Shown: piece after piece, positions 36,570 through 53,389 of the stretch
Layout of the letters: each line of letters opens with the position of its first letter
Position numbering within the stretch: the stretch's first letter is position 1
DNA from: a bacterium 1XD42-54
Lineage (GTDB): Bacteria; Bacillota; Clostridia; Lachnospirales; Lachnospiraceae
Reading direction: 5' to 3'
DNA: 64,000 nt
NCBI GenBank assembly: GCA_003612585.1
Contig: RAZH01000002.1
Coordinates: forward strand, 62,001-126,000
Program-made: the position numbers and the translations under genes
Notes under the pieces: model-generated
The model's input: the letters and a program-made list of their open reading frames with translations, nothing else
Databases searched by the model: none
What the model was told of the DNA's origin: nothing

Positions 36570-36598
36570 GATATGGAATTTAAAGTGAGGTGCAAAAG

Positions 36599-37891
36599 AT
36601 GAATGTCAGGAAGAACTACAGAAAATTTGTTCTTTTTTTACTTATTTTGAGTATGATTGCGCTCGGATACAGTGGGGTAGAGCTGCTTAAAAATCAAATC
36701 CCGGATCAGATTCTGGTATCGGAGGAGGAAGAATTTTCAGCCATTTTTCCAAGTGTATTCAAAGGTCTGATCCAGACAGAGAGAGTGAGCAATAAGGAGT
36801 CGTCTGATTCTTTAGGCAAAGAAGCTTCTGGTGATGAGGCGGCAAAAGAAGCTTCTTTATCAGGCAATGAATCAAAAAGAAATGAGGCGGAAGAAGCTGT
36901 TCAGGTTTCTTGCAGTCTGCTTGGACAGATTCGGCTGAAGACGGTGAATGTGACGATGGTTCCCCGCGACCATGTTTATGCCGGAGGAACTCCGATCGGA
37001 ATCTATTTGGAAACGGATGGAGTGCTGGTCGTTGATACCGGCGCGATTACAGGAATGGATGGCAGAGAATGTTGTCCGGCAGAGAATATCGTGAAATCCG
37101 GCGACTATATACAATCCGTAAATGGCAGGCAGGTATCCACGAAGGAAGAGTTGATTTCGCGTATTGGAGAGTGCGACGGTTCGGATGTAATTCTCGCAGT
37201 GGCTCGTGGAGAGGAAAAAATCAGCCTTCGCGTTACGCCGGTGCAGGACGCAGATGGAAACTATCGTGCGGGAATCTGGGTGCGAAACGATACGCAGGGA
37301 ATTGGAACGCTGACGTATCTGGAAGAGGACGGAAGTTTCGGAGCACTCGGACATGGAATCAGTGATATTGATACCGGAGAAATATTGGATGTACGCGGCG
37401 GTACGTTGTACGATGCGGATGTGGTTTCGGTTGTAAAAGGACAGCAGGGAGTTCCAGGCGAGCTGTCCGGTGTGATTCATTACAGTGAAGGCTACAAAAT
37501 CGGAGAAATCAAAACCAACTCTCAGAATGGGATTTTCGGGACAGTCAGCAACCTGCCGGGATTAATCGGAGAAAAGCAGCTCTACGAGACTGCCCACAAG
37601 CAGGAGGTTGAGACCGGCAAGGCCGCGATTTTGAGTTCTGTGGATGGAACCTGCCGTGAATATGAAATCATCATCAAAGAGATACGCCTGAATGGAAAAG
37701 AAGAAAATAAAGGTATGGTACTGGAAGTGACAGATGAGGAGCTTCTTGAAAAAACGGGAGGTATTGTGCAGGGCATGTCGGGGTCTCCGATTATCCAGAA
37801 CGGAAGAGTGATCGGGGCAGTGACCCATGTTTTTGTGAATGATCCCACGAAAGGGTATGGGATTTTTATTGAAAATATGTTGGAGCATTGA
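36599..37891 (+). CDS. spoIVB: SpoIVB sporulation serine peptidase
   Basis: 430 residues from ATG 36599 (GAGGTG at a normal distance). It is secreted from the forespore and cuts SpoIVFA to switch on sigma-K in the mother cell. It has an N-terminal signal anchor (KFVLFLLILSMIALGYSGV), a Glu/Ser-rich linker (60-100), a PDZ domain (VKSGDYIQSVNGRQVSTKEEL) and an S55 peptidase domain. Catalytic residues are visible: His252 in FGALGHGISD and Ser394 in QGMSGSPII; Asp lies in VFVNDPTKGYG. Normally spo0A follows directly, but here it is 15.5 kb away. Confidence 0.93.
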   Translation: MNVRKNYRKFVLFLLILSMIALGYSGVELLKNQIPDQILVSEEEEFSAIFPSVFKGLIQTERVSNKESSDSLGKEASGDEAAKEASLSGNESKRNEAEEAVQVSCSLLGQIRLKTVNVTMVPRDHVYAGGTPIGIYLETDGVLVVDTGAITGMDGRECCPAENIVKSGDYIQSVNGRQVSTKEELISRIGECDGSDVILAVARGEEKISLRVTPVQDADGNYRAGIWVRNDTQGIGTLTYLEEDGSFGALGHGISDIDTGEILDVRGGTLYDADVVSVVKGQQGVPGELSGVIHYSEGYKIGEIKTNSQNGIFGTVSNLPGLIGEKQLYETAHKQEVETGKAAILSSVDGTCREYEIIIKEIRLNGKEENKGMVLEVTDEELLEKTGGIVQGMSGSPIIQNGRVIGAVTHVFVNDPTKGYGIFIENMLEH

Positions 37892-38080
37892 GCCGTGCGG
37901 CACCAGACAAAAAAGGACTTTAATCGGGGAAAAGCAGAGCTTAATTGCCGGTTGTATATTGATATCTGTGCGTGTTACAATAGCTTAAATATAACCGGGA
38001 TACCTGCGGTGCACAGGAAATTTATATAAAGAATAATTCTGGCTTAATTTCAGGATTCAGACCCAGTAAAGGAGGATAAG

Positions 38081-38425
38081 GTGAGCATCTGCAATAATCA
38101 TCGTAAGACTGCAATCATTGTTTTCTTTTCGCTTATTCTCCTCTTATTTTTGTCTCTCCATTTTCATATCTGGAGCGGAAATTATATAGAGGGCGACCTG
38201 GAGAGTATGGTCAAACAGCATATGGACGTACTTGACAATGGGAGCACAGAAGCAGAAGCACTGGATCTAAAACCACATCGGGATTTTTTGGACACAGCGT
38301 ATTTGCCTTACAGGGAAATAAATGCATGGTTCCAGTCTGTTTATTTGACGGAAAAGTGTTTTTCTTATTATTTTTTTCGTCCAAGTATCACGCTATGCAG
38401 CTTGTCGGTGCGTATGGATGATTGA
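38081..38425 (+). CDS. Small membrane protein of unknown function
   Basis: 114 residues from GTG 38081, with AAAGGAGG six bases upstream, a strong site. One N-terminal membrane segment (TAIIVFFSLILLLFLSLHFHIW) leads to a 75-residue external part with HMDVLDNG and DFLDTAYLPYREINAWF. I do not recognise a family; the end (FRPSITLCSLSVRMDD) may be a frameshifted or shortened tail. It sits 61 bp before an ABC pair in the same direction, so it may be an accessory or substrate of that transporter. Confidence 0.5.
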   Translation: MSICNNHRKTAIIVFFSLILLLFLSLHFHIWSGNYIEGDLESMVKQHMDVLDNGSTEAEALDLKPHRDFLDTAYLPYREINAWFQSVYLTEKCFSYYFFRPSITLCSLSVRMDD

Positions 38426-38486
38426 ATTTTTCTGATCTTTCATATTTTTTTCGCAAAAAGATAGGAATCGAATCAGGAGGATTCAT

Positions 38487-39248
38487 ATGTTAGCACTTCA
38501 TGCAAGCAATATTTCAAAAAGTTATAAATCATCAGGTCAAACAATAGAAGTTTTGCGCCATGTAGATCTGCAAATTGCCAGTGGTGAAATGGTCGCCATC
38601 ATGGGACCGTCCGGAAGCGGTAAAACGACGCTTCTGCATGTGCTCGCAGGCGTGGATGTACCAGATAGCGGAACGGTGGAACTGGGAGGGGAGGATTTTA
38701 GCGGATTAACAGAAGAGGAAAAAGCATTCTTTCGAAGAACGCATATAGGTATGGTTTTTCAGGATTTTCAATTGCTGGAGAGCCTGACAGTGAAAGAAAA
38801 TATTCTGCTGCCTTTAATTTTGAATCAAAAGGACGTTTACTGGCAGGATAAGGCATTGAAAAAAGTGATGGAAGCACTTGAACTGGCGGAGTTTGCAGAT
38901 AAAAGGATTGCAGAGTTGTCCGGTGGGCAGAAGCAGCGGGTAGCAATTGGAAGAGCATTGATTCATGAACCGGGAATTGTGTTCGGGGATGAGCCGACTG
39001 GAAGCCTGGATTTGAAAACGACCAGGGATGTTATGTGCTGCATGGTACAGATGAACCGGAAGTTCGGCAGCAGTTTTCTGCTTGTGACACATGATGCGTA
39101 TGCAGCGTCTTATTGTGACAGAGCGCTCCTTTTGCAGGATGGAAAATTGAAATCAGAAGTCAGAAAGCAGGAGAGCAATGCATCATTTCGGGAGGACATT
39201 CTGAACATGTGGTGTTGTCTGGGAGGTGAAGCGGATGACTTTTTATGA
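38487..39248 (+). CDS. ABC transporter ATP-binding protein (BceA/MacB type)
   Basis: 253 residues, ATG 38487 after AGGAGG. Walker A is GPSGSGKTTLLH, the Q-loop region MVFQDFQLLESLTVKENI, signature LSGGQKQRVAIGRAL and Walker B IVFGDEPTGSLD, in the arrangement of LolD/MacB/BceA subunits. It overlaps the permease gene by 14 bp. Proteins of this kind with a single large FtsX-type permease often confer resistance to peptide antibiotics. No BceRS-type two-component system is next to it, so the role is inferred only from family. Confidence 0.93.
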   Translation: MLALHASNISKSYKSSGQTIEVLRHVDLQIASGEMVAIMGPSGSGKTTLLHVLAGVDVPDSGTVELGGEDFSGLTEEEKAFFRRTHIGMVFQDFQLLESLTVKENILLPLILNQKDVYWQDKALKKVMEALELAEFADKRIAELSGGQKQRVAIGRALIHEPGIVFGDEPTGSLDLKTTRDVMCCMVQMNRKFGSSFLLVTHDAYAASYCDRALLLQDGKLKSEVRKQESNASFREDILNMWCCLGGEADDFL

Positions 39249-40965
39249 GGTTTCCCAGAAAATGCTGTTGGCGAATTTTAGCAGATACCGGATATACTTT
39301 TTCAGCAATTTATTTGCTGCAGCTCTGTTTTACTGTTTTGCTTCCATTTTTACAAACCAATCATTTATGAATGGGAAGATTGTAAATCCATTGATATCCA
39401 GCAATATTTATTTTCCCAGCATTTTGGCTGCCCTGTTTTTGCTTTTCTTTCTGCCGCTTTCCTGCCAGGTGTTCGTTGCGGCCAGAAAAAAAGAGTATGG
39501 AATCCTGTTTTCCCTGGGCATGAGCCGGAGAGAGGCATTCTGGAGACAGTTTTGCGAGAATGTACTGGTAACGGCTTTGGCCCTGGCAGCAGCGTTGGCA
39601 GCAGGAACTTTGCTGTCATGGTTGTTTTTTGGAATCATTCGATATGGAATCGGCATTGTTGGAGTAAAGTGGGGATTGAGTCTGGAACCATATAAAATTA
39701 CAGCGTTTCTATACCTTGTGGCTTTAGCGCCCGCGTTTATTTTTCATGCAGGTAGCATATTGCGTGAAAAAATCAGTTTTTTACTGAAAGCACCGGCTCT
39801 TTCCGAGAAGGAAGGAGTGCTTTATCGGATGTTATGCAGATGCTGTTCGGGATATATGAGGAGACATATGGCAGAGTGGTCCTTTCTGAGGCGACACAGC
39901 CGCGAATGGAGGATTCGCTCTGTGCTTGCATTTGTGATTGTTTCCTGTTCTGTTATACTGGTGAGCGTAAGTGTAACCATGAGCATGGCTTTTTTAAGAG
40001 ATGCAAAAAGCTATTCACCCTACGATATGGTATATTCGGAAATGGACGAACGGCATCGGGTATTGGAAGGAAATGTAGCAGGAATTCTGGCAGAGTATGG
40101 TGTTGTGGTGGAACAGATAATTCGAATTCCATATGTGAGAAATGCCAGCTTTAATTGTTTTCCCGTGGAAAAAGTAAATCAATATTTTCAATGTGCGTAT
40201 CAGGTCAAAGACGGCCAGTTCCTGAATCTGTTTCAATATGATTTGCAGGACGGATATGAGCATGAGATGCAGCCGATTTCTGAAATTACATACAATGGGA
40301 ACAGGCAGCTGCGTTCGGCCGGAAGTGATGTGAGAATTTTATGGAATCAGAATCCGGCTTTTGCAGACAGGACACTGCTTGTCAGTGATTCTGATTTTGA
40401 AAAGCTCCAAAAGGATGCGGAATTTCAGGTCGGTGTGGCTCATTGGTTTTTGTTTGACCAGTGGGAGGACTCTTACGACGGAATCTGTGCAGTAAAAGAA
40501 TATATGAGTGAAACGAATCAGAACGCAGAATCAGAGGCAGCCTATTATGAAGTGTCCTCAAAGGTGGAATATTATCAGGATGCACAAAAATCGGGCCGGT
40601 TTTTGATCTTTTTAATCGCATTCATAGTAGGGCTCATGATGATGGCAGAATTTTTGCTGATTCATTTTCGCATCCAGGCAGAACAGGAGGAAAATAACAG
40701 GGCGGTTCTCAGTCTGCGGATGATTGGCGTGACGGACCAGGAAGTCTTAAACGATATGAAATATAAAAACAGGCTGCGTTTTATTCTTCCAGTGATTCTG
40801 GGGACTGTGTTTTCTTTTCTGCCGTGCTATTTTTTGAACGAAGCTTACAGTGCAGGCTTTCAGGGAGCATTTGCAGGAGCTGTATTTGGAATTGGAGCCG
40901 CGGGGGCAGAGGTTGTGATTTTAGGCTGGTATTCGAAAAGGGAATTTAAGGCAATGAAAGGCTGA
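39235..40965 (+). CDS. FtsX-like ABC permease (BceB type)
   Basis: 576 residues from ATG 39235 (GGGAGGTGA upstream). Membrane segments are near residues 20-40, 56-76, 105-130, 150-170 and 230-255, and three more at the C-terminal end. KKEYGILFSLGMSRREAFWRQF between the second and third segments is the usual FtsX/BceB cytoplasmic motif. The large extracellular domain between about 260 and 450 fits the peptide-sensing region of BceB proteins, although the protein is a little shorter than BceB. A terminator follows. Confidence 0.88.
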   Translation: MTFYEVSQKMLLANFSRYRIYFFSNLFAAALFYCFASIFTNQSFMNGKIVNPLISSNIYFPSILAALFLLFFLPLSCQVFVAARKKEYGILFSLGMSRREAFWRQFCENVLVTALALAAALAAGTLLSWLFFGIIRYGIGIVGVKWGLSLEPYKITAFLYLVALAPAFIFHAGSILREKISFLLKAPALSEKEGVLYRMLCRCCSGYMRRHMAEWSFLRRHSREWRIRSVLAFVIVSCSVILVSVSVTMSMAFLRDAKSYSPYDMVYSEMDERHRVLEGNVAGILAEYGVVVEQIIRIPYVRNASFNCFPVEKVNQYFQCAYQVKDGQFLNLFQYDLQDGYEHEMQPISEITYNGNRQLRSAGSDVRILWNQNPAFADRTLLVSDSDFEKLQKDAEFQVGVAHWFLFDQWEDSYDGICAVKEYMSETNQNAESEAAYYEVSSKVEYYQDAQKSGRFLIFLIAFIVGLMMMAEFLLIHFRIQAEQEENNRAVLSLRMIGVTDQEVLNDMKYKNRLRFILPVILGTVFSFLPCYFLNEAYSAGFQGAFAGAVFGIGAAGAEVVILGWYSKREFKAMKG

Positions 40966-41012
40966 GGCAGGTTTTGCGTTTTGAAAACAGGCTGAAGAAC
41001 GTGCAAGGCAGC

Positions 41013-41043
41013 AAAGGGCTTTCCAACCAGGGAGGCCCTTTTT
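41013..41043 (+). terminator. Terminator after the BceB-like permease
   Basis: AAAGGGCTTTCC pairs with GGGAGGCCCTTTTT around an AACCA loop (about 41013-41043) with a T run. Confidence 0.7.
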
Positions 41044-41167
41044 GTAAGAAAGTGGATGAAAATTCGGTGACAGGGCAGTGAAAATCGCTTATAATGAATT
41101 AGGAGACAGTTAGGGAATAATGATTAACAGATAAAATATTTGGTCTTGTATTCAAAGGGAGAACAAA

Positions 41168-41404
41168 TGATAGCAGGTGGATTGAAAGAGAAGGGATTGT
41201 TTTATATGAAAAATTTTGAAATCTGCCTATCAAATCGGGATAATAAAAGACGAAAATATCTGGTTGGAGGCACTTGCAACAAGAAATAATATGGCGCATG
41301 CATATAATCAGGTGATAGCGATAGAGATTGTCAGAAATACAAAAGCAAAATATTACAATATGTTTTGCAAATTGAAAGAAGAAATAGAAAATAATTGGAT
41401 TTAA
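41168..41404 (+). pseudogene. Remnant of an HI0074-type (nucleotidyltransferase substrate-binding) gene
   Basis: The frame from 41216 reads KSAYQIGIIKDENIWLEALATRNNMAHAYNQ, the C-terminal half of the HI0074 (HEPN/HepT-like) helical family, ending in KAKYYNMFCKLKEEIENNW. The preceding helix GGLKEKGLFYMK lies in a different frame (41168-41215), and the frame of the C-terminal half has a stop at 41207. The break falls in AAAAATTTTGAA. The N-terminal half and a nucleotidyltransferase partner gene are absent. It is a degraded relic of a MNT/HEPN toxin-antitoxin type pair. Confidence 0.7.
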
Positions 41405-41543
41405 ATTTGGGCAGACAAGGCTGGCGCAGGATGATGGTACACAGAAAGTTTTATAAATTTTGATTTATAGCATGGCTGTGGCAAATGCTTAAACTTGCGG
41501 AAAACAGTGTGAAAAATGAGACAATTTTATGCGGGGAACAAAA

Positions 41544-42182
41544 ATGGAAGCGAAATACAGGATCTCCAATTACGAAAAAATGAAAGATGATATGGCAACT
41601 GTGTTTTTACAGTACGATCAGGAAAAAATGATCCGAAAGTTTGCACTGGAGCACGACGAAACATACCTTTATATTTCTTTTGTTGGGAGAAAGTATCGCA
41701 TTAATCGTCTGACAGGCAGTGTAGTCTGGTCGGAGGATGCTTTTCGGACAGAGCAAATGGCAGATTACAATGAAGCTATGACCATATATGACGTGCTGTG
41801 CTATTCCAAAGAATCGTGTCAGCCTGCAAATGAGTGGATCAATGTGGGAAGTCTTTCCGGCATTCAAGGTGGAACCCTGGCAAAAGGAAGCAACTTCTTT
41901 CAGGATGCTGGTGCATATTTTGACGGGAAAACACGATTGTTGATTCAGGCATGTGAGTCATTGGGAGGAAGAAGAGTAAAAAAAGGAGATGTGGCATTTG
42001 AACTGGATTTGTTTCCGTTTCTTACAATAGCACTGCATTTCTGGGAATCCGACGAGGACTTTCCCGCAAGTTTGCAAATTCTGGTGGATAAAAACATTCT
42101 TGATTATATGCATTATGAAACAGTAATGTTTGCGGTCACACATGTGCTTGGCTGTTTAAGAAGTAAGTGTGAAGTGCTTTGA
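41544..42182 (+). CDS. DUF3786 family protein
   Basis: 212 residues from ATG 41544. Members of DUF3786 are found in anaerobes and have no established function. Visible here: a Tyr/Asp-rich N terminus with KYRINRLTGSVVWSE, then YDVLCYSKESCQPANEWINVGSLSGIQGG, and a C-terminal part KGDVAFELDLFPFLTIALHFWESDEDFPASLQILVDKNILDYMHYETV. Four Cys and several His make metal binding conceivable. Distant similarity of the family to cobalamin/CO-dehydrogenase-linked proteins is noted in the literature from memory only. The next gene is 56 bp away. Confidence 0.75.
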   Translation: MEAKYRISNYEKMKDDMATVFLQYDQEKMIRKFALEHDETYLYISFVGRKYRINRLTGSVVWSEDAFRTEQMADYNEAMTIYDVLCYSKESCQPANEWINVGSLSGIQGGTLAKGSNFFQDAGAYFDGKTRLLIQACESLGGRRVKKGDVAFELDLFPFLTIALHFWESDEDFPASLQILVDKNILDYMHYETVMFAVTHVLGCLRSKCEVL

Positions 42183-42238
42183 TCACTTTCCGGTTTAGGC
42201 AGGCAAATCAAAGACAAAATAGTTTTGGGGGTTATAGA

Positions 42239-42769
42239 ATGAATTTGAAAATACGCAAAGCGGTACCGGAAGATCTTGAAGATGTGGCAAAAATTTATGA
42301 AAAAATTCATTTGGCAGAGGAAAAGGGAGAGGCGCAGATCGGATGGGAAAGAGGCGTCTATCCGGAGAAGGCTACAGCACAGGAGGCTCTCGCCAGAAAT
42401 GATTTGTTCGTTGAAGAGCTGGACGGCAATATCGTTGGCACAGCAATATTAAATCAGGCACAGGTCGATATCTATGAGAAAGCGAATTGGAGATATGATG
42501 TACCTGCAGAGCAGGTAATGGTAATGCACACGCTTGTCGTAGACCCGGATATCAAAGGGAAGGGACTTGGCAGAGCTTTTGCAGAGTTTTATGAAAAATA
42601 TGCAGTGCAGCAAGGCTGCCATTATTTGCGGATTGATACGAATGAGAAAAACACAAATGCCCGGAAGTTTTACAAAAAACTGCAGTACGAAGAAATTGAT
42701 ATTTTGCCATGCACTTTTAATGGTTTGGAAGGGGTTAACCTGGTATTGTTGGAAAAAAGGATAGAATGA
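42239..42769 (+). CDS. GNAT family N-acetyltransferase
   Basis: 176 residues from ATG 42239, with a GGGGGT site upstream. IRKAVPEDLEDVAKIYEKIH is the usual N-terminal strand and helix. The acetyl-CoA loop is MHTLVVDPDIKGKGLGRAFAEFYEKYA, with V-x-P-x-x-K-G-K-G-L-G, and the end has RIDTNEKNTNARKFYKKLQYEE. The substrate cannot be told. It is the last gene before a terminator. Confidence 0.88.
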   Translation: MNLKIRKAVPEDLEDVAKIYEKIHLAEEKGEAQIGWERGVYPEKATAQEALARNDLFVEELDGNIVGTAILNQAQVDIYEKANWRYDVPAEQVMVMHTLVVDPDIKGKGLGRAFAEFYEKYAVQQGCHYLRIDTNEKNTNARKFYKKLQYEEIDILPCTFNGLEGVNLVLLEKRIE

Positions 42770-42817
42770 AGACAATGGATTGACTGATATAACGAGAAAT
42801 CAAATAGATTCGAAAAC

Positions 42818-42868
42818 GGACGCGTGGTATGACACCGGGATGGTGATGTGCCATGCGTCCTTGTTTTT
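42818..42868 (+). terminator. Rho-independent terminator after the GNAT gene
   Basis: GGACGCGTGG (42818-42827) pairs with CCATGCGTCC (42851-42860), with TTGTTTTT after it. Confidence 0.82.
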
Positions 42869-43015
42869 GAAAAAGTCTGCAAAAAGGGAAAATAGTAAGC
42901 CTGGCTATCCGTTTGGAGAGTGGACTTGTTCATAAGGATAAAGTAAAATAAAAAATATATATAATAAAAAATCAGGGAAATTGTTACCAAGAATGTAAAA
43001 AGAAGGTGGGGGTAG

Positions 43016-45427
43016 TTGGATAAAAGCTATATAGCTCCGGAGGTTGCGCTTCGGAAACTGAGGGCTGCGCGGGGCTTGCAGCAGACGATATATATTTACG
43101 GAGCGACCGGCTACGGCAAAACAGAGCTTGTACGGCAGTATCTCTCTAATCGCAGATATCAGTATTTTTCCTGCAGGGAAGACAGAGAAAAACCGGAAGA
43201 AATATTTAGCTTTTGGCCGGAGCGTGAAAAGGGAGCTGGGAAACCGCGTGAAAAAAGAAACACAAAAGATCAGGCTTCCGTCATTGTAGTGGATGACCTT
43301 CATTTGCTGAAAAGCGAGGAGGGACGCGCGCAGATTCTGGAAACGATTGGACGCGGGGAGGTATGGCTGATTTTGATTGGCAGGAGTCCCATGCCGCTCT
43401 GGTTGATGCAGACCTATGTAAAAGAAGGCTTTCTGATTGTTACAGAAGAGGATCTGCGCCTCAAGAAAAAAGAAATTGCAGAATATTTCCAGAGGCAGCA
43501 GCTTTCTTTTACAGAGGAGGAGGCTGCGTACGTTTGGGAACAGACCCAGGGAAACGGCTACGTGGTACGGCACACGGCACTTAAGATGCAGGAGGGAAAA
43601 CGGCCGGGCCCGCAGCTGACACAGGAGATTCAGGAAGCTTTTGTAGATTATCTGGAAAGCTGTATTCTTGTTGAATGGGACAGCGATTTGCTGGAATTTC
43701 TGATGAAGATCAGTGTGGTAGAAGAATTCACCTTGCCGATGGCGGAGCTGGTTTCGGGAGACAGCAGAGTATCAGAGCTTTTGGAACGGGCTTTGGAGGC
43801 GGGGAATTTTCTGACTTGTGAAGAAGGTGTTTACCGGCTCCGTCCGGAGCTGGTGGGTGCGCTCCGAAAAAGGGCGGCAAAAGTATTTGGTTCTGATAAG
43901 ATGGCGGATTATGCTTATAATGCAGGGCTGTATTATGAAATGCATGATCAGATTGTACCTGCGCTTGTGATGTTTGAACAGTGCGGCAGAAAGGAACGCG
44001 TAAAAGATTTGTTGGTTCGCAACGCGCGCTTGAATCCGGGTAACGGACATTATTTTGAACTGCGCCGGTATTATTTACAGATGCGGGAAGAAGAGGTAGA
44101 AGAAAGTGCTGTTTTAATGGCAGGGATGAGTATGCTGTATTCGTTGCTGTTGCAGGAAGACGAGAGCGAATACTGGTATGACAAACTGAAATTGTTTGTG
44201 CAGAAGACAAAAGGAGGCCAGAGGCGGGAAGCACTGAGCAGACTTGTTTATCTTGACATAGCGCTGCCTCACCGCGGGAGCATAGATATGCTTGAGATTA
44301 TGAAACGGGTTCCTTCCCTGCTGTTTAAACGGGGCATTCGGCTGCCGGAATTTTCGGTCACGAGCAATTGTCCGAGTACGATGAATGGAGGAAAAGATTT
44401 TTGCCATTGGAGTAAAGATGACCGGAAGCTGGCAGTTACGGTTGGGAGACTTGTTGAGCGGGTACTGGGGCGTTACGGAAAAGGGCTTGTAAAGGCTGCC
44501 CTTGGCGAAAGCCTGTATGAAAAGGGTGGAGATACGTATGAAATACTGACTCTTCTGACACGCGCGCAGATGGAGACAGAAGGCAGCGGGATGATGGAGA
44601 TAGAATTTGCCGCTGTTGGCCTGCAGGTACGCCTGAATGTTTTTCACGGGGAAATGCAGACTGCCAAAGCGCTGCTCGGCGCTTTTGATGGAAAGGTACG
44701 GGAACAGAGAGCCCTGCAGCTTTTGCCTAATATAGCGGCTTTGAAGTGCCGTCTGGCGTTGTATGAGGGTGACAGGAATACGGTGGAAACCTGGATGGAG
44801 ACAGCACCAGATGAGAAAAAGGAATTTTATGTGATGGAGCGTTACCGGTATTTGACGAAGGTGCGTTGTTATATATTTGCAGGGGCTTATCTTGAAGCAC
44901 AATCCCTCCTGGAAAAACTGAGGTATTACGCAGAGAAATTTCACCGTATTTATATACGTATGGAGGTCAATCTGCTTTCTGCAATTGTAAAGCAGCGTAT
45001 GGGAGGAGAATGGAAAGAAGACTTTCTGGCAGCTCTCAAAGAGGCGGGGAAGTATCATTTCTTTCGTCTGATCAGTGAAGAGGGAGCAGCGGTAAAAGCG
45101 CTGTTTGCATCTGCGGGACGGTCTTTTTTGGAGCAGGAGCTGCCAGATAAAGAATGGTTCTCACGCCTGTTATTGGAAACCGGGGAGGTGGCAGTGCGTT
45201 ATCCGGTTTATCTGAAACGACAGCTTGCGCAGATGCCGGATTTCTGTGAGACGGCATTAGCCATTCTTCGGTTACAGGCAGAAGGACTGAGTGTGAACCA
45301 GATTTCGGAGCGGCTTTCCATGAAAGCAGCAACCGTGAAATATCATACAAAAGAGAATTACCGGAAGCTTGGAGTGTCGGGGAAAACGGATGCTGTGCTG
45401 GCTGCACGGAATCTTGGGATTTTATAG
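43016..45427 (+). CDS. MalT-like LuxR family (LAL) transcriptional regulator
   Basis: 803 residues from TTG 43016 (AAGGTGGGGG upstream). A P-loop, YGATGYGKTELVR, lies near residues 28-40, with Walker B-type VIVVDDLHLL and IGRSPMPLWLMQ in a STAND ATPase layout. Residues 290-700 are helical, TPR-like repeats, typical of MalT. The last 65 residues are a LuxR HTH: ILRLQAEGLSVNQISERLSMKAATVKYHTKENYRKLGV. It is a large ATP- and ligand-dependent activator. The 1443-residue surface protein gene starts 24 bp later in the same direction, so it may be co-transcribed or regulated by it. Confidence 0.9.
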   Translation: MDKSYIAPEVALRKLRAARGLQQTIYIYGATGYGKTELVRQYLSNRRYQYFSCREDREKPEEIFSFWPEREKGAGKPREKRNTKDQASVIVVDDLHLLKSEEGRAQILETIGRGEVWLILIGRSPMPLWLMQTYVKEGFLIVTEEDLRLKKKEIAEYFQRQQLSFTEEEAAYVWEQTQGNGYVVRHTALKMQEGKRPGPQLTQEIQEAFVDYLESCILVEWDSDLLEFLMKISVVEEFTLPMAELVSGDSRVSELLERALEAGNFLTCEEGVYRLRPELVGALRKRAAKVFGSDKMADYAYNAGLYYEMHDQIVPALVMFEQCGRKERVKDLLVRNARLNPGNGHYFELRRYYLQMREEEVEESAVLMAGMSMLYSLLLQEDESEYWYDKLKLFVQKTKGGQRREALSRLVYLDIALPHRGSIDMLEIMKRVPSLLFKRGIRLPEFSVTSNCPSTMNGGKDFCHWSKDDRKLAVTVGRLVERVLGRYGKGLVKAALGESLYEKGGDTYEILTLLTRAQMETEGSGMMEIEFAAVGLQVRLNVFHGEMQTAKALLGAFDGKVREQRALQLLPNIAALKCRLALYEGDRNTVETWMETAPDEKKEFYVMERYRYLTKVRCYIFAGAYLEAQSLLEKLRYYAEKFHRIYIRMEVNLLSAIVKQRMGGEWKEDFLAALKEAGKYHFFRLISEEGAAVKALFASAGRSFLEQELPDKEWFSRLLLETGEVAVRYPVYLKRQLAQMPDFCETALAILRLQAEGLSVNQISERLSMKAATVKYHTKENYRKLGVSGKTDAVLAARNLGIL

Positions 45428-45451
45428 AAAACGAAACTAGGAGGAATAAGG

Positions 45452-48400
45452 ATGCAAGGATCAGGAAAAAGGTTTCTGGCAATTCTGGTTAGCGCAGCTA
45501 TGCTGACTGCAACAGCCGGAGCACCGGTTAGCGCGGCAGAAAAAGAAGAAATAGCGGCCGCATTGGAAAACGGGGAACAGAAGGCTACAGAGACGGCAGA
45601 AATATCGAAAGAGGAGGCCGTGACCTCAGAGACGAAAGCATCGGAGGAAACAGAGACAAAACCGGAGGAAACGGAAACGCCAAAGCTGCCAGAGACATCA
45701 GATACGTCCGAAGGACAATCAGAACCAGAGACACCGGAAATGCCGCAGCAGTCGGAAGTGTCGTCAGAAACAAAGCCGCCGAAGACAGAGGAGACATCAA
45801 ATGTGTCTGAAGGACAATCAGAATCAGAGACTTTGGAAACACCGCAAGGGCCGAAAGAGCCATCCGAAAATGGGAAGCCAGAGACTGTAGATACATCAGA
45901 TAAACCTGAAACACCATCCGAAACGCCGGGAATTTTGAATATGACACAAGCCCTGGCAGCGGAATCTGCCGGGCTGCCTGACACGGATACATCTGTACCG
46001 GAAGTTTCAGGAAAAACGGTACTTTCCGGTGAGGAGAATACATCGGGAATGATTGATGTACCAGAACCGTCTGAATTATCAAAGCCGGAGTTTTATGCGC
46101 TCAATGATGCGTTTGAAGTGGACGGAATCAAATATAAGGAAGTCGGAGCAGGCAGGGTTCGCCTGATGGAAGGCAAACAGGCAAGCGGGAACCTGGTTAT
46201 ACCGGAAATGGTCAAAAAGCCCGGAACACAGAAAGAATATCGGGTGGTTTCGATTGAAGGAAGGGCATTTGCAAGCAACAAAAATCTGACTGGAATTACT
46301 CTTCCCTCAAGCCTGACCAGCATTGGAACTTATGCATTTTCAGGGTGCAGCGCTCTGACAGGGAACCTGGTTTTACCTGAAGGCCTGGCGGAGCTCGGGG
46401 ATTATGCATTTCAGAGCTGTGCAGGTCTTTCCGGGGATATCAGACTGCCGGACAGCCTGTTGAATATTGGAATCAGTGCTTTTTATGGATGCAGCGGTTT
46501 TAATGGAAGCCTGGTTCTGCCGGGAAATCTGACTTACCTTGGAAAGAGTACGTTCGATGGATGCAGCGGGCTGCAGGGAACCGTGCTTCTGCCGGACAGC
46601 CTGAATGTAATCGAGACATACGCTTTTTCGAGATGCCAGTTTACGTGTGAGGCATCATCAGAATCAGTTGCAGCACTGGCGTATGGTTCAGGATATCGTA
46701 ACATAACGCTGAATGGCGTTCTGTATGAACCGGCGCCGATAAACACTTCTACTTTTCGTGTTGATGACTTTTATTATAAAATAATTGATAAAGAAAAAGG
46801 ATATGTTCAATTAAGTTCGTCTCCAAGCACGGTATCAGGCGTTGTGACAATTCCGGATCGTGTCACGTATCAGGAAAAAACGTATCAGGTAACAGAAATC
46901 GGGCCAATGGCCTTTCATTCGAAAAAGAATATAACCGGAGTGATTTTTCCGGAAGGCCTGCTTCATATAGGAGATTCTGCTTTTGACTACTGTACTGGCC
47001 TTAGCGGAACCCTGACATTGCCGGACAGCCTGGTCAGCATCGGGGCAGAGGCTTTCATGGAATGTACCGGCCTGAGTGGGAATCTGATTTTTCCAGAAAA
47101 TATGAAAAGCATAGGAAAATTTGCTTTTATGAATTGTACAGGCTTCAATGGATCTTTACAATTACCGGACAGCATTACAAATATCGGGGAAAGTGCCTTT
47201 TTTAACTGCTGTAACCTGAGAGGAACTCTGACATTGCCGTCTGGTCTGACGAAAATATCTCAGAATGCATTTTATAATTGCAGCCGTCTGACTGGAATAC
47301 TGACAATTCCGGACAGTGTTACGGGACTGGGCAGCACGGCATTTCAGCTGTGCAGCGGTATTACAGAGTTTCAGGTTGGAAAAGGGGTACAGAGTATCGG
47401 AAGTTCCGCGTTTCCTTCTGGAGCCAAGCTGGTGACGGGCAGCCCTCAGGTTCAGCTTTTGCTGGTAGAATATCTGAGATTGAATGAGATCCCGGCCGCT
47501 TTTTGGGACGGGCAGGAAGATGTGCCGGGCGGTGCGATAGTTACCGTAGAGAAAGATGCTGTGATTTCCGGTGACATTACGATTGGTGAGGAAGCGCAGG
47601 TAAGGATTGCTCCGGATGTTACGGTCACTGTTTCCGGAAAGCTGACAGTGGAAGGAACTGTTACCGTGGAAGGAATTTTGCTGGCAGACGGCACAATTAA
47701 TGTCACAGAAACAGGTACGATTGTCAGGAGAAAACAGGAGCAGCTTGAGATTCAGGATATAGGGAACAGAACGTATGGGGATGACAGCTTTACACTGGCT
47801 GTAAACGGCGGAAGTGGTGTAGGTGCTGTGACATTTGAAAGTTCTGATCCGTCTGTGCTGAGTATTTCAGGTAATACAGCGACAATCCGAAAGGCAGGAA
47901 CTGTTGTTATTACGGCGACAAAATCGGAGGATTATACATTTAAAGAAACGTCAGCGATACAGCCTGTTGATATTGAACGGAAAAGAGTTACAATTCAGGC
48001 AGAAAATATTTCTGTGAAGAAAGAAGAGCAGCTCCCGGGATTCACGTATGTGCCCTTGACACTGGCGTATCAAGATCGTATCGAAACAGAGCCGGTATTA
48101 ACCAGCAGTGTAATAGATACAGGGGTGATCGGTGAATATTCAATTGAGATTAAAGGAGCAGTACTGACCAATCATGACAGCTATGTGATTGAATATGTTC
48201 CGGGGATTTTGAGGGTGACAGATAATCTCTATACACTTAAGGTAAATAACAGTGGGGATGGAGCAACAGCATCAGGAGAGTTCCATCCAGGAGAACGGAT
48301 TGAGCTTCATGCCGGAACCAGAAATGAGTATGTGTTTGATGGCTGGATTTCTGACAATGGCGGTGTGTTTGAGGACGCAGCTTCACCGGATACTGGTTTT

Positions 48401-49783
48401 ATTATGCCAAAAGCGGATGTAGTGATTACTGCAAACTGGAAAAAAGAAGAGGGACCTTCTGATAATAATGAAGGAGGAACCGGCGGCAACGGAGGAACCG
48501 GAAGTAACGAAGAGGGAACCGGCGGCAACGGAGGAACCGGAAGTAACGAAGAGGGAACCGGCGGCAACGGAGGTTCCGGAAGCAATGAAGGAGGAACTGG
48601 CGGTAACGGAGGTTCCGGCGATAACGAAGGAAACAAGAAACCGGACAATGACAAAAAAACAGAAGAAAAAAGAAAAGATGATAGAAAGGTGACAGAGCCT
48701 GCAATCGGAACTGTTTCCGTAGATGCTGAGAAGGATGGTAAGGATGGAACTATTTCTGTGAACATAACAGAAGCACATATCAGTCAGGCGGTTCAGGCAG
48801 CAAAGGATGCAGCAGCAGACAGGGATGTAAATGCAGGAGATATTTCAATTAAGATTCAGGTTACATTTGAGGAAGATGGTTCAGATGAGAATAGGGTGAA
48901 TCATCTGAAAGTCAATCTTTCGTCTGAGGTACAGAAGCAGATGAAAGACAATAAAATCAGCCGGGTTACGTTTGCAGCCGAAAAGCCGGGCATCTCCGTA
49001 GGGCTTGATCTGAATGCTGTCGTGGCAGTCAATGATCAGGCGAAAGGAGATGTGCAGCTGGTCATCACGTGCGCAGATTCCACCAAGCTTTCCGGGGAAG
49101 CACAGGTTGCAATTGGAAGCCGTCCGGCGTTTGAACTGAACATTTTATACGGCAGTGATCAGCAGATGATCACAGATTTTGGTTCCGGGAAAATGCACGT
49201 TGCAGTTCCATATGAATTACAGAAAGAAGAAAATCCGGGAGGAATGCAGGCAGTTTACGTGAGCGAAGAGGGAGAAGCCACGTATTTGATTAATTCTGTT
49301 TACAGCAGCGGCAAAAAGGTGGCGTATTTTGCAGCAGACTGTCCCGGAATCTATGGACTGGGGTATCGAACACCAGCTTCCTGCAAAGATGTGAAAACCC
49401 ACCCGGCAAAAGATGATATGGAATTTGTAATCAGCCGGAAACTGATGGAACCGCTTGAAGATGGGGTGTTCGGCCCGGAAGAACCGGTAACGGTGGAGCA
49501 GTTTACCGCTTGTTTTGAAAAACTGACTGGGATAGATGTGACCACTGGCCTTGAACGTTATTTTGCCGGAGCAGATACATGGCAGACTCTTACGCGTGCA
49601 CAGGCGTGCTGTCTGCTGCGCCATTATACGGAACATACCATTTCTGGTTCTGTATCAGAAGGCTGGCTGAGAAATACTTCCGGCAGTTGGGCATACTATC
49701 AGGATGGCAGAAAGCTGACCGGAATTCATACCATAGACGGGTTGTGGTATGAATTTGGTAAAGACGGTTTGCTGAAAGGATAA
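45452..49783 (+). CDS. Secreted BspA-like leucine-rich-repeat surface protein
   Basis: 1443 residues, ATG 45452 after AGGAGGAATAAGG. Signal peptide (KRFLAILVSAAMLTATAGAPVSA). A Glu/Thr/Ser/Pro-rich stalk covers about 30-210. Two LRR_5 (BspA-type) blocks follow, near 270-400 and 485-645, each opened by the same kind of cap: DGIKYKEV...VSIEGRAFASNKNLTGI and DDFYYKII...TEIGPMAFHSKKNITGV. So cap plus repeats was duplicated. After this come MBG/Ig-like parts (QDIGNRTYGDDSFTLAVNGG; RKRVTIQAENISVKKEE), an InlB-like repeat (RNEYVFDGWISDNGG), a Gly/Asn linker of four 13-residue repeats, an unknown domain, an SLH-like part near 1315-1395 and a choline-binding-type repeat (GLWYEFGKDG) at the C-terminal end. 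It has no membrane anchor at the end, so it would be held non-covalently. It may bind host or bacterial glycans; the ligand is unknown. Confidence 0.88.
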   Translation: MQGSGKRFLAILVSAAMLTATAGAPVSAAEKEEIAAALENGEQKATETAEISKEEAVTSETKASEETETKPEETETPKLPETSDTSEGQSEPETPEMPQQSEVSSETKPPKTEETSNVSEGQSESETLETPQGPKEPSENGKPETVDTSDKPETPSETPGILNMTQALAAESAGLPDTDTSVPEVSGKTVLSGEENTSGMIDVPEPSELSKPEFYALNDAFEVDGIKYKEVGAGRVRLMEGKQASGNLVIPEMVKKPGTQKEYRVVSIEGRAFASNKNLTGITLPSSLTSIGTYAFSGCSALTGNLVLPEGLAELGDYAFQSCAGLSGDIRLPDSLLNIGISAFYGCSGFNGSLVLPGNLTYLGKSTFDGCSGLQGTVLLPDSLNVIETYAFSRCQFTCEASSESVAALAYGSGYRNITLNGVLYEPAPINTSTFRVDDFYYKIIDKEKGYVQLSSSPSTVSGVVTIPDRVTYQEKTYQVTEIGPMAFHSKKNITGVIFPEGLLHIGDSAFDYCTGLSGTLTLPDSLVSIGAEAFMECTGLSGNLIFPENMKSIGKFAFMNCTGFNGSLQLPDSITNIGESAFFNCCNLRGTLTLPSGLTKISQNAFYNCSRLTGILTIPDSVTGLGSTAFQLCSGITEFQVGKGVQSIGSSAFPSGAKLVTGSPQVQLLLVEYLRLNEIPAAFWDGQEDVPGGAIVTVEKDAVISGDITIGEEAQVRIAPDVTVTVSGKLTVEGTVTVEGILLADGTINVTETGTIVRRKQEQLEIQDIGNRTYGDDSFTLAVNGGSGVGAVTFESSDPSVLSISGNTATIRKAGTVVITATKSEDYTFKETSAIQPVDIERKRVTIQAENISVKKEEQLPGFTYVPLTLAYQDRIETEPVLTSSVIDTGVIGEYSIEIKGAVLTNHDSYVIEYVPGILRVTDNLYTLKVNNSGDGATASGEFHPGERIELHAGTRNEYVFDGWISDNGGVFEDAASPDTGFIMPKADVVITANWKKEEGPSDNNEGGTGGNGGTGSNEEGTGGNGGTGSNEEGTGGNGGSGSNEGGTGGNGGSGDNEGNKKPDNDKKTEEKRKDDRKVTEPAIGTVSVDAEKDGKDGTISVNITEAHISQAVQAAKDAAADRDVNAGDISIKIQVTFEEDGSDENRVNHLKVNLSSEVQKQMKDNKISRVTFAAEKPGISVGLDLNAVVAVNDQAKGDVQLVITCADSTKLSGEAQVAIGSRPAFELNILYGSDQQMITDFGSGKMHVAVPYELQKEENPGGMQAVYVSEEGEATYLINSVYSSGKKVAYFAADCPGIYGLGYRTPASCKDVKTHPAKDDMEFVISRKLMEPLEDGVFGPEEPVTVEQFTACFEKLTGIDVTTGLERYFAGADTWQTLTRAQACCLLRHYTEHTISGSVSEGWLRNTSGSWAYYQDGRKLTGIHTIDGLWYEFGKDGLLKG
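48476..48631 (+). repeat. Four 39-bp tandem repeats encoding a Gly/Asn linker
   Basis: Four units of 39 bp coding GTGGNGGTGSNEE with small changes (S for T, G for E) between 48476 and 48631. They form a flexible linker inside the BspA-like protein. Copy number is probably variable between strains. Confidence 0.92.
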
Positions 49784-49824
49784 TTAAATCTTCAGGTAAG
49801 ACTTCAGGCAAATGAAGTTGGAAT

Positions 49825-49880
49825 GAAAAAAGGCATATGGAATAGCAAAGGAAAGAAGCTTTGTGATCCATATGCTTTTT
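49825..49880 (+). terminator. Rho-independent terminator after the LRR surface protein
   Basis: GCATATGGA (49833-49841) pairs with TCCATATGC (49867-49875), with A residues before and T residues after. It can work on both strands. Confidence 0.85.
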
Positions 49881-50025
49881 TGTAGCCCATTCAAGAGACA
49901 ATGTGTAAGGGAATCAAGCTTCCTTTTGCCTGCGTGGCTTGAAATATGGCAGACTTCATGATAAGATAATTTTAATCGTTGGAAATATTTTGATAATAAA
50001 AAACAGAGCGCATGAGGTGTTGCGG

Positions 50026-50403
50026 ATGCAGATTAATTTAAGTTCAGATGGTTACGAGATCGTTGACAGCAGGCAGGTTTTTCTATTTGAGGCGAGTAAG
50101 GATTTAAAGCTGGATATCAGAGCAGATAACGGCTTTTCTTTTTCTGTTGTTTTAGTTTTTTTGAAGGATTCCTCAGGGAAACAGGAGATTAGGCAGGAAG
50201 TTAGGGAAAATACGCTTCATCTGTCGTGTATGAATTTTATGGATAAGGGAACCGGCCTTATTACACCAAAAAAGATAGCAGAGATCGAAGACAGAGCGCT
50301 GTTTTTGATGTTTTGGTCTTCCGTGCACGGAGATCTGAACGGGAAGGTCAGAAGTGTAAGATATACCCTGTTTTTTGAAAGACAGCCGGAGGAGAGTGAA
50401 TAA
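50026..50403 (+). CDS. Small beta-rich protein, similar to DUF6864
   Basis: 125 residues from ATG 50026, with GAGGTG seven bases upstream. It appears to be all beta: MQINLSSDGYEIVDSRQVFLFEASKDLKLDIRADNGFSF, then NTLHLSCMNFMDKGTGLITPKKIAEI, then RALFLMFWSSVH and RSVRYTLFFE. The pattern matches the DUF6864 family as I remember it, but this is not certain. The stop codon touches the start of the HipA-like kinase gene with no gap, so the two are translated together. It may be a partner or inhibitor of that kinase. Confidence 0.6.
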   Translation: MQINLSSDGYEIVDSRQVFLFEASKDLKLDIRADNGFSFSVVLVFLKDSSGKQEIRQEVRENTLHLSCMNFMDKGTGLITPKKIAEIEDRALFLMFWSSVHGDLNGKVRSVRYTLFFERQPEESE

Positions 50404-51645
50404 ATGGGAGCGAATCGGCTGATTACAAACGGGTCGTATGTATTAAATGAGAAAGCGGTTCAAAACAAAACCAAAAAACGGCTTGCGTATGAAGTGATGC
50501 ACATGGACCGGCGGGTGGCAAGTATTTCGTCCATTGGGAATGTAAAGATTTTTGATGAGGCTTTTATGCCATTTGACCTTTATCTTGAGCAGGAAGAGGA
50601 ACACGACATTGAGACAATGATGAACAATGTCAACAATTTTTACCATTGGTGTGCATCGCGTGTTCTGTCGCTGGACCGGAAATATGCAAAGGAAATTTTA
50701 AACAGTATCGGTGTGGCTCAGGCTGTGACAGATAAGGACCGCGCAGAGATTTCTCTGTCATATCACTGCGTCTCTCTGACGGATGTTTTCTGGGTCAGGG
50801 GCCAGGAGGAAGATGTTGCATTTGCAGAGCTGAATCTGTACGACAATACATTAAATGAGGCAGTTGTAGAGCTGTCCTTGAAAGGCCGGCAGATGACAGT
50901 CACAAATGAGGAGCTGGCGCCGGATTTATCAACAAAAGGCTGCTTTCCCAAAGCATGGATCCGCGGTGAAGGCGGCTTTCGTCTCCTGAAAGGGGGAAAC
51001 GAATCTGCCGTGAACAGGGAATTGCTGGCAAGCGCGGTCTGCCAGTGTTTTGATGTCAGGCAGGTGAGGTACCGAAAGCATATTTATGAGGGGCAGGTGG
51101 TTACGGAGAGCGATATCATAACGTCAAAGGAATACTCTATGGTTTCAAAGATGGCGTTTGATATTTATGCGTGTAATCATGATCTGGATACACTTGAGAT
51201 CTGTAAGCGTCTGGACCCGGTAACTTATTATGGTATGAATATTCTGGATTATCTGACCGGGAATACGGACCGCCATCCGGAAAACTGGGGGTTTTTGGTG
51301 GATAACAGCACAAATCAGTGTATTTCTCTGTATCCGCTGATGGATTTTAATCAGTGTTTTTTGTCTTATGACAATCTGGAAGGTGCAAGCTGCCAGACCG
51401 TATTACCGCTTCGAATGACACAGAGAGAGGCGGCTATCGAAGCAGTCAAAGCGATCGGGCTGCGGCAGATCGCAAAGATCGATATGGGCTGGTTTGGGAC
51501 AATGGAAAAAGAAGCAGAAATGTTTCTGTTACGGCTTGCAGAATTGAAACATTATGAATCGAAACGTTATGAATCAAAACGTGACGAAAGGACAGAAAAG
51601 GATGAATCTGATACAAAAGATAGAAGCGTACCGTCCATGGAATGA
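50404..51645 (+). CDS. HipA-like Ser/Thr protein kinase
   Basis: 413 residues, ATG 50404 directly after the preceding stop. The kinase part has GGFRLLKGG (ATP-binding Lys196), SAVNRELLASAVC (Glu206), YYGMNILDYLTGNTDRHPENWGF with the catalytic Asp289-x-His291-xx-Asn294, and PLMDFNQCF with the metal-binding Asp314. This is the HipA/CtkA fold. The N-terminal 170 residues differ from classical HipA and include YHCVSLTDVFWVRGQEEDV. The last 30 residues are charged (KRYESKRDERTEKDESDTK) and overlap the Nudix gene by 44 bp. No HipB-type HTH antitoxin is present beside it. It probably phosphorylates a cell protein; target unknown. Confidence 0.85.
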   Translation: MGANRLITNGSYVLNEKAVQNKTKKRLAYEVMHMDRRVASISSIGNVKIFDEAFMPFDLYLEQEEEHDIETMMNNVNNFYHWCASRVLSLDRKYAKEILNSIGVAQAVTDKDRAEISLSYHCVSLTDVFWVRGQEEDVAFAELNLYDNTLNEAVVELSLKGRQMTVTNEELAPDLSTKGCFPKAWIRGEGGFRLLKGGNESAVNRELLASAVCQCFDVRQVRYRKHIYEGQVVTESDIITSKEYSMVSKMAFDIYACNHDLDTLEICKRLDPVTYYGMNILDYLTGNTDRHPENWGFLVDNSTNQCISLYPLMDFNQCFLSYDNLEGASCQTVLPLRMTQREAAIEAVKAIGLRQIAKIDMGWFGTMEKEAEMFLLRLAELKHYESKRYESKRDERTEKDESDTKDRSVPSME

Positions 51646-52162
51646 ACAGGAAGCAAAGGACCGGGAGCTGATTCTGGAATGCCTGCGCCGGGAACCGGAT
51701 ATTTTTACAAGAAAAAATGTCCTGGCGCATATGACAGCTTCAGGCTGGGTGGTGAATCCGGCGCGGGACAGAGTATTGATGGCGTATCACAGGATTTTTG
51801 ATTCCTGGTCATGGCTTGGCGGACATGCGGACGGGCAGGAGGATCTGCTGGCTGTGGCAGTACGTGAAGTGCAGGAGGAGAGTGGGCTTCAGGAAGTATG
51901 TCCGGTATCAGAGGATATTTTTTCTCTGGAGGTGTTGACCGTAGACGGCCATATAAAGCGTGGGGCATATGTGGCTTCTCATCTGCATTTGAATGTTACG
52001 TATCTTCTGGAGGCTTCCGATGAGGAAGCGTTGTCTGTGAAAGAGGATGAAAACAGCGCTGTGGCCTGGTTTGGCCTGCAGGAGACCGTGAAGGTTTCCA
52101 CGGAGCCATGGCTTCGGGAGCACATTTACGGAAAATTAAACGAAAAACTTCATTTCATGTAA
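51602..52162 (+). CDS. Nudix hydrolase
   Basis: 186 residues, ATG 51602, with AAAAGG just before it. The Nudix box is complete: GGHADGQEDLLAVAVREVQEESGL, matching GX5EX7REUXEEXGU. The N-terminal part includes ILECLRREPDIFTRKNVLAHMTASGWVV and DRVLMAYHRIFDSWSWLGGHADG, which resembles the NADH pyrophosphatase/MutT-like group found in Lachnospiraceae. It removes a nucleoside diphosphate from some substrate. It begins inside the HipA-like gene, so these belong to one transcript, but whether the functions are linked is open. Confidence 0.88.
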   Translation: MNLIQKIEAYRPWNEQEAKDRELILECLRREPDIFTRKNVLAHMTASGWVVNPARDRVLMAYHRIFDSWSWLGGHADGQEDLLAVAVREVQEESGLQEVCPVSEDIFSLEVLTVDGHIKRGAYVASHLHLNVTYLLEASDEEALSVKEDENSAVAWFGLQETVKVSTEPWLREHIYGKLNEKLHFM

Positions 52163-52188
52163 GGTTATGAGAGAGGAAAAGTACGAAA

Positions 52189-53049
52189 ATGAGCTTTGAC
52201 TGGAAAAAAGACGGAAAAAGAATTTTGATTATCTGCATTGCGGCTGTGATTTCAGCGGTGAATATCAAGACATTTGTGCGCACAGGCGGACTGTATCCGG
52301 GCGGAGCAACGGGACTTACGATTCTGATACAGCGCATCGGAGAACGCTATCTGAATGTGGAAATTCCGTATACAGTTATCAATCTGCTGTTGAACGCAGT
52401 TCCGGCTTATATTGGATTCCGATTTATCGGAAAGAAATTTACCCTGTATTCCTGTCTGATGTTTTTTCTGACCGGTCTTCTTACAGATGTGATTCCGGCG
52501 CAGGTAATCACGTATGATACGCTGTTGATTAGTATTTTTGGCGGTATTATCAACGGATTTACGATAAGCTTATGTCTGCGTGAGAATGCGACGACCGGAG
52601 GCACCGATTTTATCAGTATTTATTTGTCGGACCGGACCGGAATGGACTCTTTTAATGTGATTCTTGGCATTAATGTTGTGATTATCGGAATTGCAGGCGT
52701 TCTGTTCGGATGGGATAAGGCGCTGTATTCCATTATCTATCAGTACGCCTCCACACAGGTATTGCATACGCTTTATCAGAAATATCAGAAAAAAACGTTG
52801 TTTATTGTAACAAACAGGCCAAAGGAAATCTGTGAGGTCATTAAAGAGATGAGCCATCACGGTGCGACGATTCTGGAAGGGGAAGGGTCCTATGAAGGGT
52901 GTACGCGCGATGTTGTTTATTCTGTCATATCAAGTGCGGAATGCAAACAGGTAACGCGCGCAGTGCGTGAAGTCGATCCGAAAGCGTTTATCAATGCAAT
53001 GAGGACCGAGGAACTGACGGGACGTTTTTATCAGAAGCCGACAGAATGA
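52189..53049 (+). CDS. YitT family membrane protein
   Basis: 286 residues. It has five to six membrane segments: LIICIAAVISAVNIKTFV, GLYPGGATGLTIL, IPYTVINLLLNAVPAYIGF, LYSCLMFFLTGLLTDVIPA, LLISIFGGIINGFTISLCL and VILGINVVIIGIAGVLFG. The C-terminal soluble domain is DUF2179 (KTLFIVTNRPKEICEVIKEMSHHGATILEGEGSYEG). This is the full YitT layout. The function is unknown. It sits right before the spo0A promoter region. Confidence 0.92.
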   Translation: MSFDWKKDGKRILIICIAAVISAVNIKTFVRTGGLYPGGATGLTILIQRIGERYLNVEIPYTVINLLLNAVPAYIGFRFIGKKFTLYSCLMFFLTGLLTDVIPAQVITYDTLLISIFGGIINGFTISLCLRENATTGGTDFISIYLSDRTGMDSFNVILGINVVIIGIAGVLFGWDKALYSIIYQYASTQVLHTLYQKYQKKTLFIVTNRPKEICEVIKEMSHHGATILEGEGSYEGCTRDVVYSVISSAECKQVTRAVREVDPKAFINAMRTEELTGRFYQKPTE

Positions 53050-53264
53050 TGCCCGACGTATGTCCGGAACGCTGTTTTTTCCAGCAGATTTTCCGTATTG
53101 CGTTTATTCGACGGCAATCGGAGAAAAAAATTTCGTGATTTTCAGACTTTTTTTTATTTTCTGCGTCACTAATCGATTCCTATTACGTTATAGTATTATG
53201 TGACGTGTGCATTTTACGGCAGAAACAGGGGAGCTTTCTGTCGTTTTTGGGGGACAAGATTTTC

Positions 53265-53292
53265 TTGCCATCACGCGAGGTTGTTATATAAT
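53265..53292 (+). promoter_or_regulatory. Promoter of spo0A
   Basis: TTGCCA (53265-53270), 16-bp spacer, TATAAT (53287-53292), about 97 bp before the spo0A start. The rest of the 340-bp gap between yitT-like and spo0A is AT-rich, and only weak 0A-box-like sites are seen. Confidence 0.68.
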
Positions 53293-53389
53293 ACAAGTAG
53301 TTTTTGTACATGACAATTTTTGGTAAGGGCCCACAAAAAATGCAGCGGTGCAACGACAGAAAATTCATAGGATTGAGAGGAGTATTACG

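Follow-up and report, generated by a model that had tools for sequence, protein, structure and literature searches.

The described systems closest to the locus reported here pair a HipA-like kinase with a DUF3037 protein (PDC-M66, DS-6 and HipAD). According to the cited passages of PMC12548924, such a pair protects against a phage, the kinase being required and deletion of DUF3037 being toxic, and those of PMC13092281 describe the DS-6/HipAD pair, in which a kinase residue is needed for defence. HipA-homologous kinase families and their antitoxin contexts are treated in PMC8262856, in the cited passages of which the word CtkA is absent. The locus lies in the window, the whole 64 000 nt stretch analysed, which comes from a genome of 3.7 Mb. 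As far as the cited passages go, it shares with the DUF3037 systems a HipA-like kinase, a partner other than HipB and a two-gene organization. In contrast, its partner belongs to DUF6864 and not DUF3037 (Pfam gave no DUF3037 match in the pair at E up to 1), and the pair is known from its genes, whereas the DUF3037 pairs are known from defence assays. The locus fits the kind of system that joins a HipA-like kinase to a non-HipB partner, while neither this partner nor this branch of kinases occurs in the cited passages.

HipBA and the window kinase have in common the kinase fold, the Asp-Arg-His-xx-Asn loop and the metal-binding Asp. Unlike HipBA, the window pair has no helix–turn–helix (HTH) antitoxin, its partner is modelled without helices, and its kinase reaches only 18.2 bits for HipA_C, below the curated cut-off of 30.5; no Couple_hipA match was listed for the kinase at E up to 1 (Pfam). 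HipBST is like the pair in that the kinase goes with a separate small protein (presumed, in the window pair, to be regulatory), and there is a weak match to HipT(Lp); a Pfam search of the partner sequence at E up to 1 found no HipB- or HipS-type (N-subdomain-1-like) domain. The best PDB match of the window kinase, by sequence and by fold, is the Helicobacter pylori kinase CtkA, called proinflammatory in PDB entry titles. We know of no DUF6864 partner for CtkA. Against the PADLOC models, the kinase matched PDC-M03A of the candidate system PDC-M03 (best E 1.6e-8), covering only 28–44 residues around the catalytic loop, and the DUF6864 protein matched no model at E up to 1; no paper naming PDC-M03 was found in the literature searched.

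Organization of the locus

The features of the locus are collected in Table 1. The stop codon of the DUF6864 gene, a TAA ending at 50403, is followed directly by the kinase ATG at 50404, just as an earlier, sequence-only reading of this DNA had it; that reading also placed the start of a Nudix gene inside the kinase gene, and the overlap is real, although likelier 44 nt than 92.

Table 1. Features of the DUF6864–kinase locus and the adjoining Nudix gene, in window coordinates
Feature	Position	Strand	Length	Basis or remark
DUF6864 (PF21732) protein gene	50026..50403	+	125 aa	Pfam, AlphaFold2 model, selection; candidate kinase regulator/antitoxin
HipA/CtkA-like protein kinase gene	50404..51645	+	413 aa	Alignment, profile search, Foldseek
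Kinase N-terminal motif, residues 4–17	50413..50454	+		Proposed docking peptide for DUF6864; motif comparison of linked and solo kinases
Catalytic loop Asp289-Arg-His-Pro-Glu-Asn294 (Asp-Arg-His-x-x-Asn)	51268..51285	+		45-row alignment
Metal-binding Asp314	51343..51345	+		Invariant in 45 alignment rows
Extra kinase C-terminal tail, ~residues 386–413	51559..51645	+		Imperfect direct repeat; runs into Nudix gene
Nudix hydrolase gene	51602..52162 (frame open from 51554)	+		NUDIX match E 5.9e-10 (Pfam); judged a neighbour, outside the pair
Nudix box	51821–51886	+		Within Nudix hydrolase gene, from sequence

Upstream of the DUF6864 gene, Pfam identified a BspA-like leucine-rich surface protein (window 45452–49783; 1443 residues with leucine-rich repeats, an SLH domain and a Gly/Asn/Glu-rich repeat stretch), and farther upstream in the window lie a RecN/SMC-domain gene and a SpoIVB gene. 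A YitT-type membrane protein and then Spo0A (Pfam) follow the Nudix gene. The spoIVB and spo0A genes are usually close neighbours in Clostridia; here (window 36590–53348) they are separated by about 15 kb of other genes. Elsewhere the window holds a single open frame of 2407 residues with a GTG start (2503–9726).

The kinase and its partner

D289, R290, H291, N294 and D314 are invariant in 45 aligned kinase rows, which bears out the catalytic Asp-x-His-xx-Asn and metal-binding Asp read earlier from the sequence; the metal-binding role of Asp314 is one that we assume by analogy with HipA. A profile of these 45 rows matched CtkA (E 5.5e-10), with weak matches also to PI4 kinases and HipT(Lp) (E 0.034 for the latter), and in a Foldseek search the AlphaFold2 model of the kinase (pLDDT 82) matched CtkA (E 8.2e-8) and then HipA (E 4.8e-7). 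Taken with the HipA_C match below its cut-off, these profile and fold matches and the invariant catalytic residues show the window kinase to be a distant HipA/CtkA-type kinase and not HipA itself. HipA-like kinase genes also occur in twos: at one locus (L024, 1495–3935) two are adjacent on the same strand, and at another (L119, 2992–6442) two on the same strand have four small genes between them.

The small protein is a member of DUF6864 well over the curated Pfam cut-off (102.5 bits against 27, E 1.6e-29), its residues 5–118 spanning positions 2–114 of the 114 in the profile. Its AlphaFold2 model has nine strands and no helix (mean pLDDT 89), in keeping with the beta-rich protein recognized in the sequence-only reading. 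No confident PDB match was obtained, either by sequence profile or by fold, and neither the Pfam scan nor the model of the small protein revealed a DNA-binding domain for autoregulation. The absence of a HipB antitoxin beside the kinase, noted earlier from the sequence, holds up: no adjoining HTH antitoxin was found among the Pfam-scanned neighbours (DUF6864, Nudix, YitT, Spo0A and the BspA-like protein), and the partner matches DUF6864 alone and has a helix-free model. Pfam lists DUF6864 as of function unknown, and the literature searched yielded no paper naming it.

Distribution of the pair

Among 299 genomes sampled from the family, the kinase (counted at 47% identity or more, whole or in fragments) is present in 25 and DUF6864 in six, at seven places. 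The two genes adjoin one another in four of the 25 kinase-bearing genomes (G000, G028, G090 and G201); in the other 21 the kinase has no adjacent DUF6864, and one of these (G152) carries DUF6864 elsewhere. The sequence-only reading had held that separation of the two genes in most genomes would speak against a pair. That reading's refuting test is borne out by half, the two being apart in 21 of 25 genomes. Their adjacency recurs in scattered lineages, which supports the proposed association of a HipA-like kinase with a beta-rich partner.

A search of genome contigs returned 36 kinase loci, with patterns drawn from the window kinase and hence biased to close relatives. DUF6864 stands directly upstream in 12 of them, nine times whole and three times broken; beyond these 12, a doubtful trace (E 0.13) precedes the kinase of locus L052, and two loci (L034 and L035) are almost identical. 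Seen from the other gene, 10 of the 14 DUF6864 loci from all whole-genome searches adjoin the kinase, two an AAA ATPase and two a small membrane-type protein. The 10 take in one remnant below the Pfam cut-off (G1036), included because the kinase comes next, and the 14 leave out two matches below that cut-off (G677 and G740), at whose loci a custom DUF6864 profile gave no match (E up to 1) and no kinase was found. Over the cut-off DUF6864 is rare, occurring in 6/299 family, 2/392 order, 1/398 phylum and 7/47 genus genomes, each count including the window's own genome. The order of DUF6864 followed by the kinase recurs in 11 lineages, with a gap of 0–42 nt in the nine pairs measured. At the loci whose ORF lists were inspected by eye, the surroundings are chromosomal genes of housekeeping type, with no evident defence islands. 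The DUF6864–kinase pair is a real, conserved two-gene module, but most kinase relatives stand alone.

Selection and decay

For four linked pairs belonging to a single clade (L035, L037, L041 and L057), five Nei–Gojobori comparisons gave dN/dS values of 0.063–0.109 for the kinase and 0.085–0.273 for DUF6864. In two wider comparisons with the window the kinase was saturated, and DUF6864 gave 0.30–0.37. Both genes of the pair are under purifying selection, and the low dN/dS of each, together with the strength of the DUF6864 match, indicates that the gene pair is not a product of chance. Solo kinases gave 0.055–0.072 in four comparisons. Since solo kinases are common and purifying selection acts on them too, absence of DUF6864 does not in general make the kinase lethal.

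Either gene can decay. The kinase is broken beside an intact DUF6864 at L021, L049 and L117, DUF6864 is broken beside an intact kinase frame at L032 (the same as L113) and L056 (the same as L115), and both are broken at L064 and L114; many of these loci are from draft assemblies, and part of the breaks may be errors. An intact kinase frame beside a broken DUF6864 counts against a strict toxin–antitoxin reading.

The kinase N-terminal motif

Kinases linked to DUF6864 start about 27–32 residues ahead of a conserved Ile-Met-His stretch, whereas many solo kinases start later and the others carry unrelated sequence before it. This leading segment of the linked kinases contains a motif (N/S/D, x, L/I, a mostly hydrophobic position, four residues, F/Y/V/I, x, L/A, D/N, x, N) that is one residue longer in some of them. 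The motif was scored in 11 linked lineages, a set that excludes L035, L037 and L057 as close kin of L041 and includes L021, L049, L056 and L114 despite one broken partner. They were compared with 34 solo kinases, among which are near copies (such as L042, L043 and L045) and L052; a duplicate of L033 (L002) and loci for which the ORF table had no full kinase frame (L009, L048, L060 and fragments) were removed. In leave-one-out scoring with a matrix aligned by eye, all 11 linked lineages reached at least 0.41 and all 25 scorable solos stayed at or below 0.19, nine solos being too short to score; against shuffles, 10 of the 11 had P values of 0.014 or less, and L053 was weak (P 0.15). When the test was made by leave-one-out with MAFFT and a profile HMM, 10 of 11 linked lineages outscored all 34 solos. 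The one to fail was L004, whose score was reached by 9 of the 34 solos and by 34 of 200 shuffles.

On the kinase tree, many forks of which are weak, linked and solo genes are interleaved (linked L053, for example, sits next to solo L063), and so kinship alone does not account for the motif. By these comparisons the motif tracks the DUF6864 partner; we infer that it is a putative docking tag for DUF6864. The motif was not found in the other partners of DUF6864, the AAA ATPase and the small membrane-type proteins. In Vescimonas fastidiosa, a plasmid-borne distant kinase relative (L120, 2788–4197) carries a HipB-like HTH_3 domain as an N-terminal fusion, which indicates that a regulator can occupy this end of the protein.

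Proposed function of the pair

The kinase is most likely under DUF6864 control. Our best single guess as to the form of that control, with a probability of about 0.45 and ahead of an adaptor or sensor role, is a toxin–antitoxin-like module in which DUF6864 would restrain the kinase. DUF6864 would bind the N-terminal peptide and keep the kinase inactive; its removal or displacement, for instance in phage infection, would free the kinase to phosphorylate a cell target, and growth would slow. An all-beta DUF6864 would then stand in the place of HipB, HipS or DUF3037. This reading draws on the recurrence of the pair (12 of 36 kinase loci and 10 of 14 DUF6864 loci), the motif test, the dN/dS values, the kinship with CtkA, HipA and HipT, the Vescimonas fusion and the precedent of DUF3037. 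Counted against it are the 21 of 25 genomes with unpaired kinases, the selection on solo kinases, the broken copies of DUF6864, the lack of a DNA-binding domain, the housekeeping-type sites, and the scores of L004 and L053 in the motif tests. By its likeness to the HipA-like kinase/DUF3037 pair of the cited passages, a role in toxin–antitoxin function or phage defence is plausible.

Several of these counter-arguments suit a different arrangement, possible but less likely, in which the kinase takes part in signalling and is not toxic, DUF6864 acting on it as an adaptor or sensor that switches it on or aims it; the solo kinases would be regulatory, and in some lineages DUF6864 would feed in a further input by way of the N-terminal peptide. 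In favour of this, kinases without the partner are frequent and conserved, the kinase frame stays intact at two loci where DUF6864 is broken, the genes around the loci look by eye like housekeeping genes, and the N-terminal motif would suit an adaptor no less than an antitoxin. However, HipA and HipT, among the structurally known bacterial relatives, are growth-inhibiting toxins, and the patchy presence of the pair with its many broken copies resembles an accessory module more than the core of a signalling pathway. Patchiness and the frequent decay of either gene would also be expected if the pairing were a historical accident, the genes travelling together as one insertion without a physical or functional link. 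This we consider improbable, given that the motif of the linked kinases is missing in the solo kinases scored, that purifying selection acts on both genes, and that gene order and close spacing have been kept across lineages.

The adjoining Nudix gene

The Nudix protein is close to PDB 3fcm (E 1e-58). Nine homologues from other genomes begin to align at residue 11–19 of the long ORF, so that ATG 51602 (residue 17) is a likelier start than 51554, and the later start reduces the overlap with the kinase gene from 92 to 44 nt. The overlap exists because the kinase has a C-terminal tail that relatives lack or have in shorter form: most kinases in the alignment shown end near residue 384–391, and the extra tail is shared by a sister of the window locus (L031, a 99% match). 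By eye, an imperfect direct repeat (~15 nt) can be made out in the tail region (window 51540–51600).

A homologue of the Nudix gene is present in 11 of 40 genus genomes, and the kinase is beside it just in the window genome and in its near copy G1061, whose Nudix gene, in the same three-gene arrangement, is split by contig ends. In the remaining nine, the flanks retrieved (1.5 kb upstream for eight genomes, 0.3 kb for one) contained no kinase. Of the 69 kinase loci, a count with duplicates, 62 offer 600 nt or more of downstream sequence, and a Nudix box adjoins the kinase in two of these, the window and L052. The Nudix-box ORF of L052 (7110–7697) starts 21 nt downstream of the kinase and encodes a different protein, with no tblastn match to the window Nudix at E 1e-3.

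The close packing and overlap, repeated in G1061, and the neighbouring ORF of L052 are what favours one functional set of three genes, with the Nudix enzyme acting on the product or signal of the kinase, but we rejected that set as highly improbable, since most genus homologues show no kinase in the flanks retrieved, a Nudix box is rare beside the kinase (two of 62 loci) and belongs to a different protein at L052, and the overlap stems from a tail that has no counterpart in relatives. Of the tight three-gene unit proposed in the sequence-only reading, the DUF6864–kinase pair survives and the Nudix gene becomes a bystander.

Other neighbours of DUF6864

At two loci of the window's genus (L071, 138–1848, and L112, 174–1851, both on the minus strand) DUF6864 lies directly upstream of a defence-type AAA ATPase. 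The ATPase of L071 matches the PADLOC models PDC-M55A (E 1.1e-40) and NsnB (E 8e-39), and that of L112 is 94% identical to it. At two further loci (L072, 1441–2117, and L073, 1158–1842 on the minus strand) DUF6864 is upstream of small proteins of 103 and 109 residues, membrane-like by eye, amid genes with phage-family matches; the small protein of L072 has a weak PycTM match (E 0.0015), and the L073 locus is also present in an IMG/VR viral contig. Because DUF6864 also stands beside an AAA ATPase and small prophage proteins, though in small counts, a broader reading suggests itself, which we regard as rather doubtful: DUF6864 may be a transferable control module, acting as antitoxin or as sensor of infection and adopted by several unrelated effectors, namely the HipA/CtkA-like kinase through its N-terminal docking peptide, the PDC-M55A/NsnB-type AAA ATPase and the small membrane-type prophage proteins.

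The N-terminal motif makes DUF6864 directly testable as a partner of the kinase. If DUF6864 works as an antitoxin, it would represent a further, unrelated means of control over HipA-type kinases in addition to HipB, HipS and DUF3037, and the other genes that it stands beside would hint at a control part used repeatedly in defence genes.
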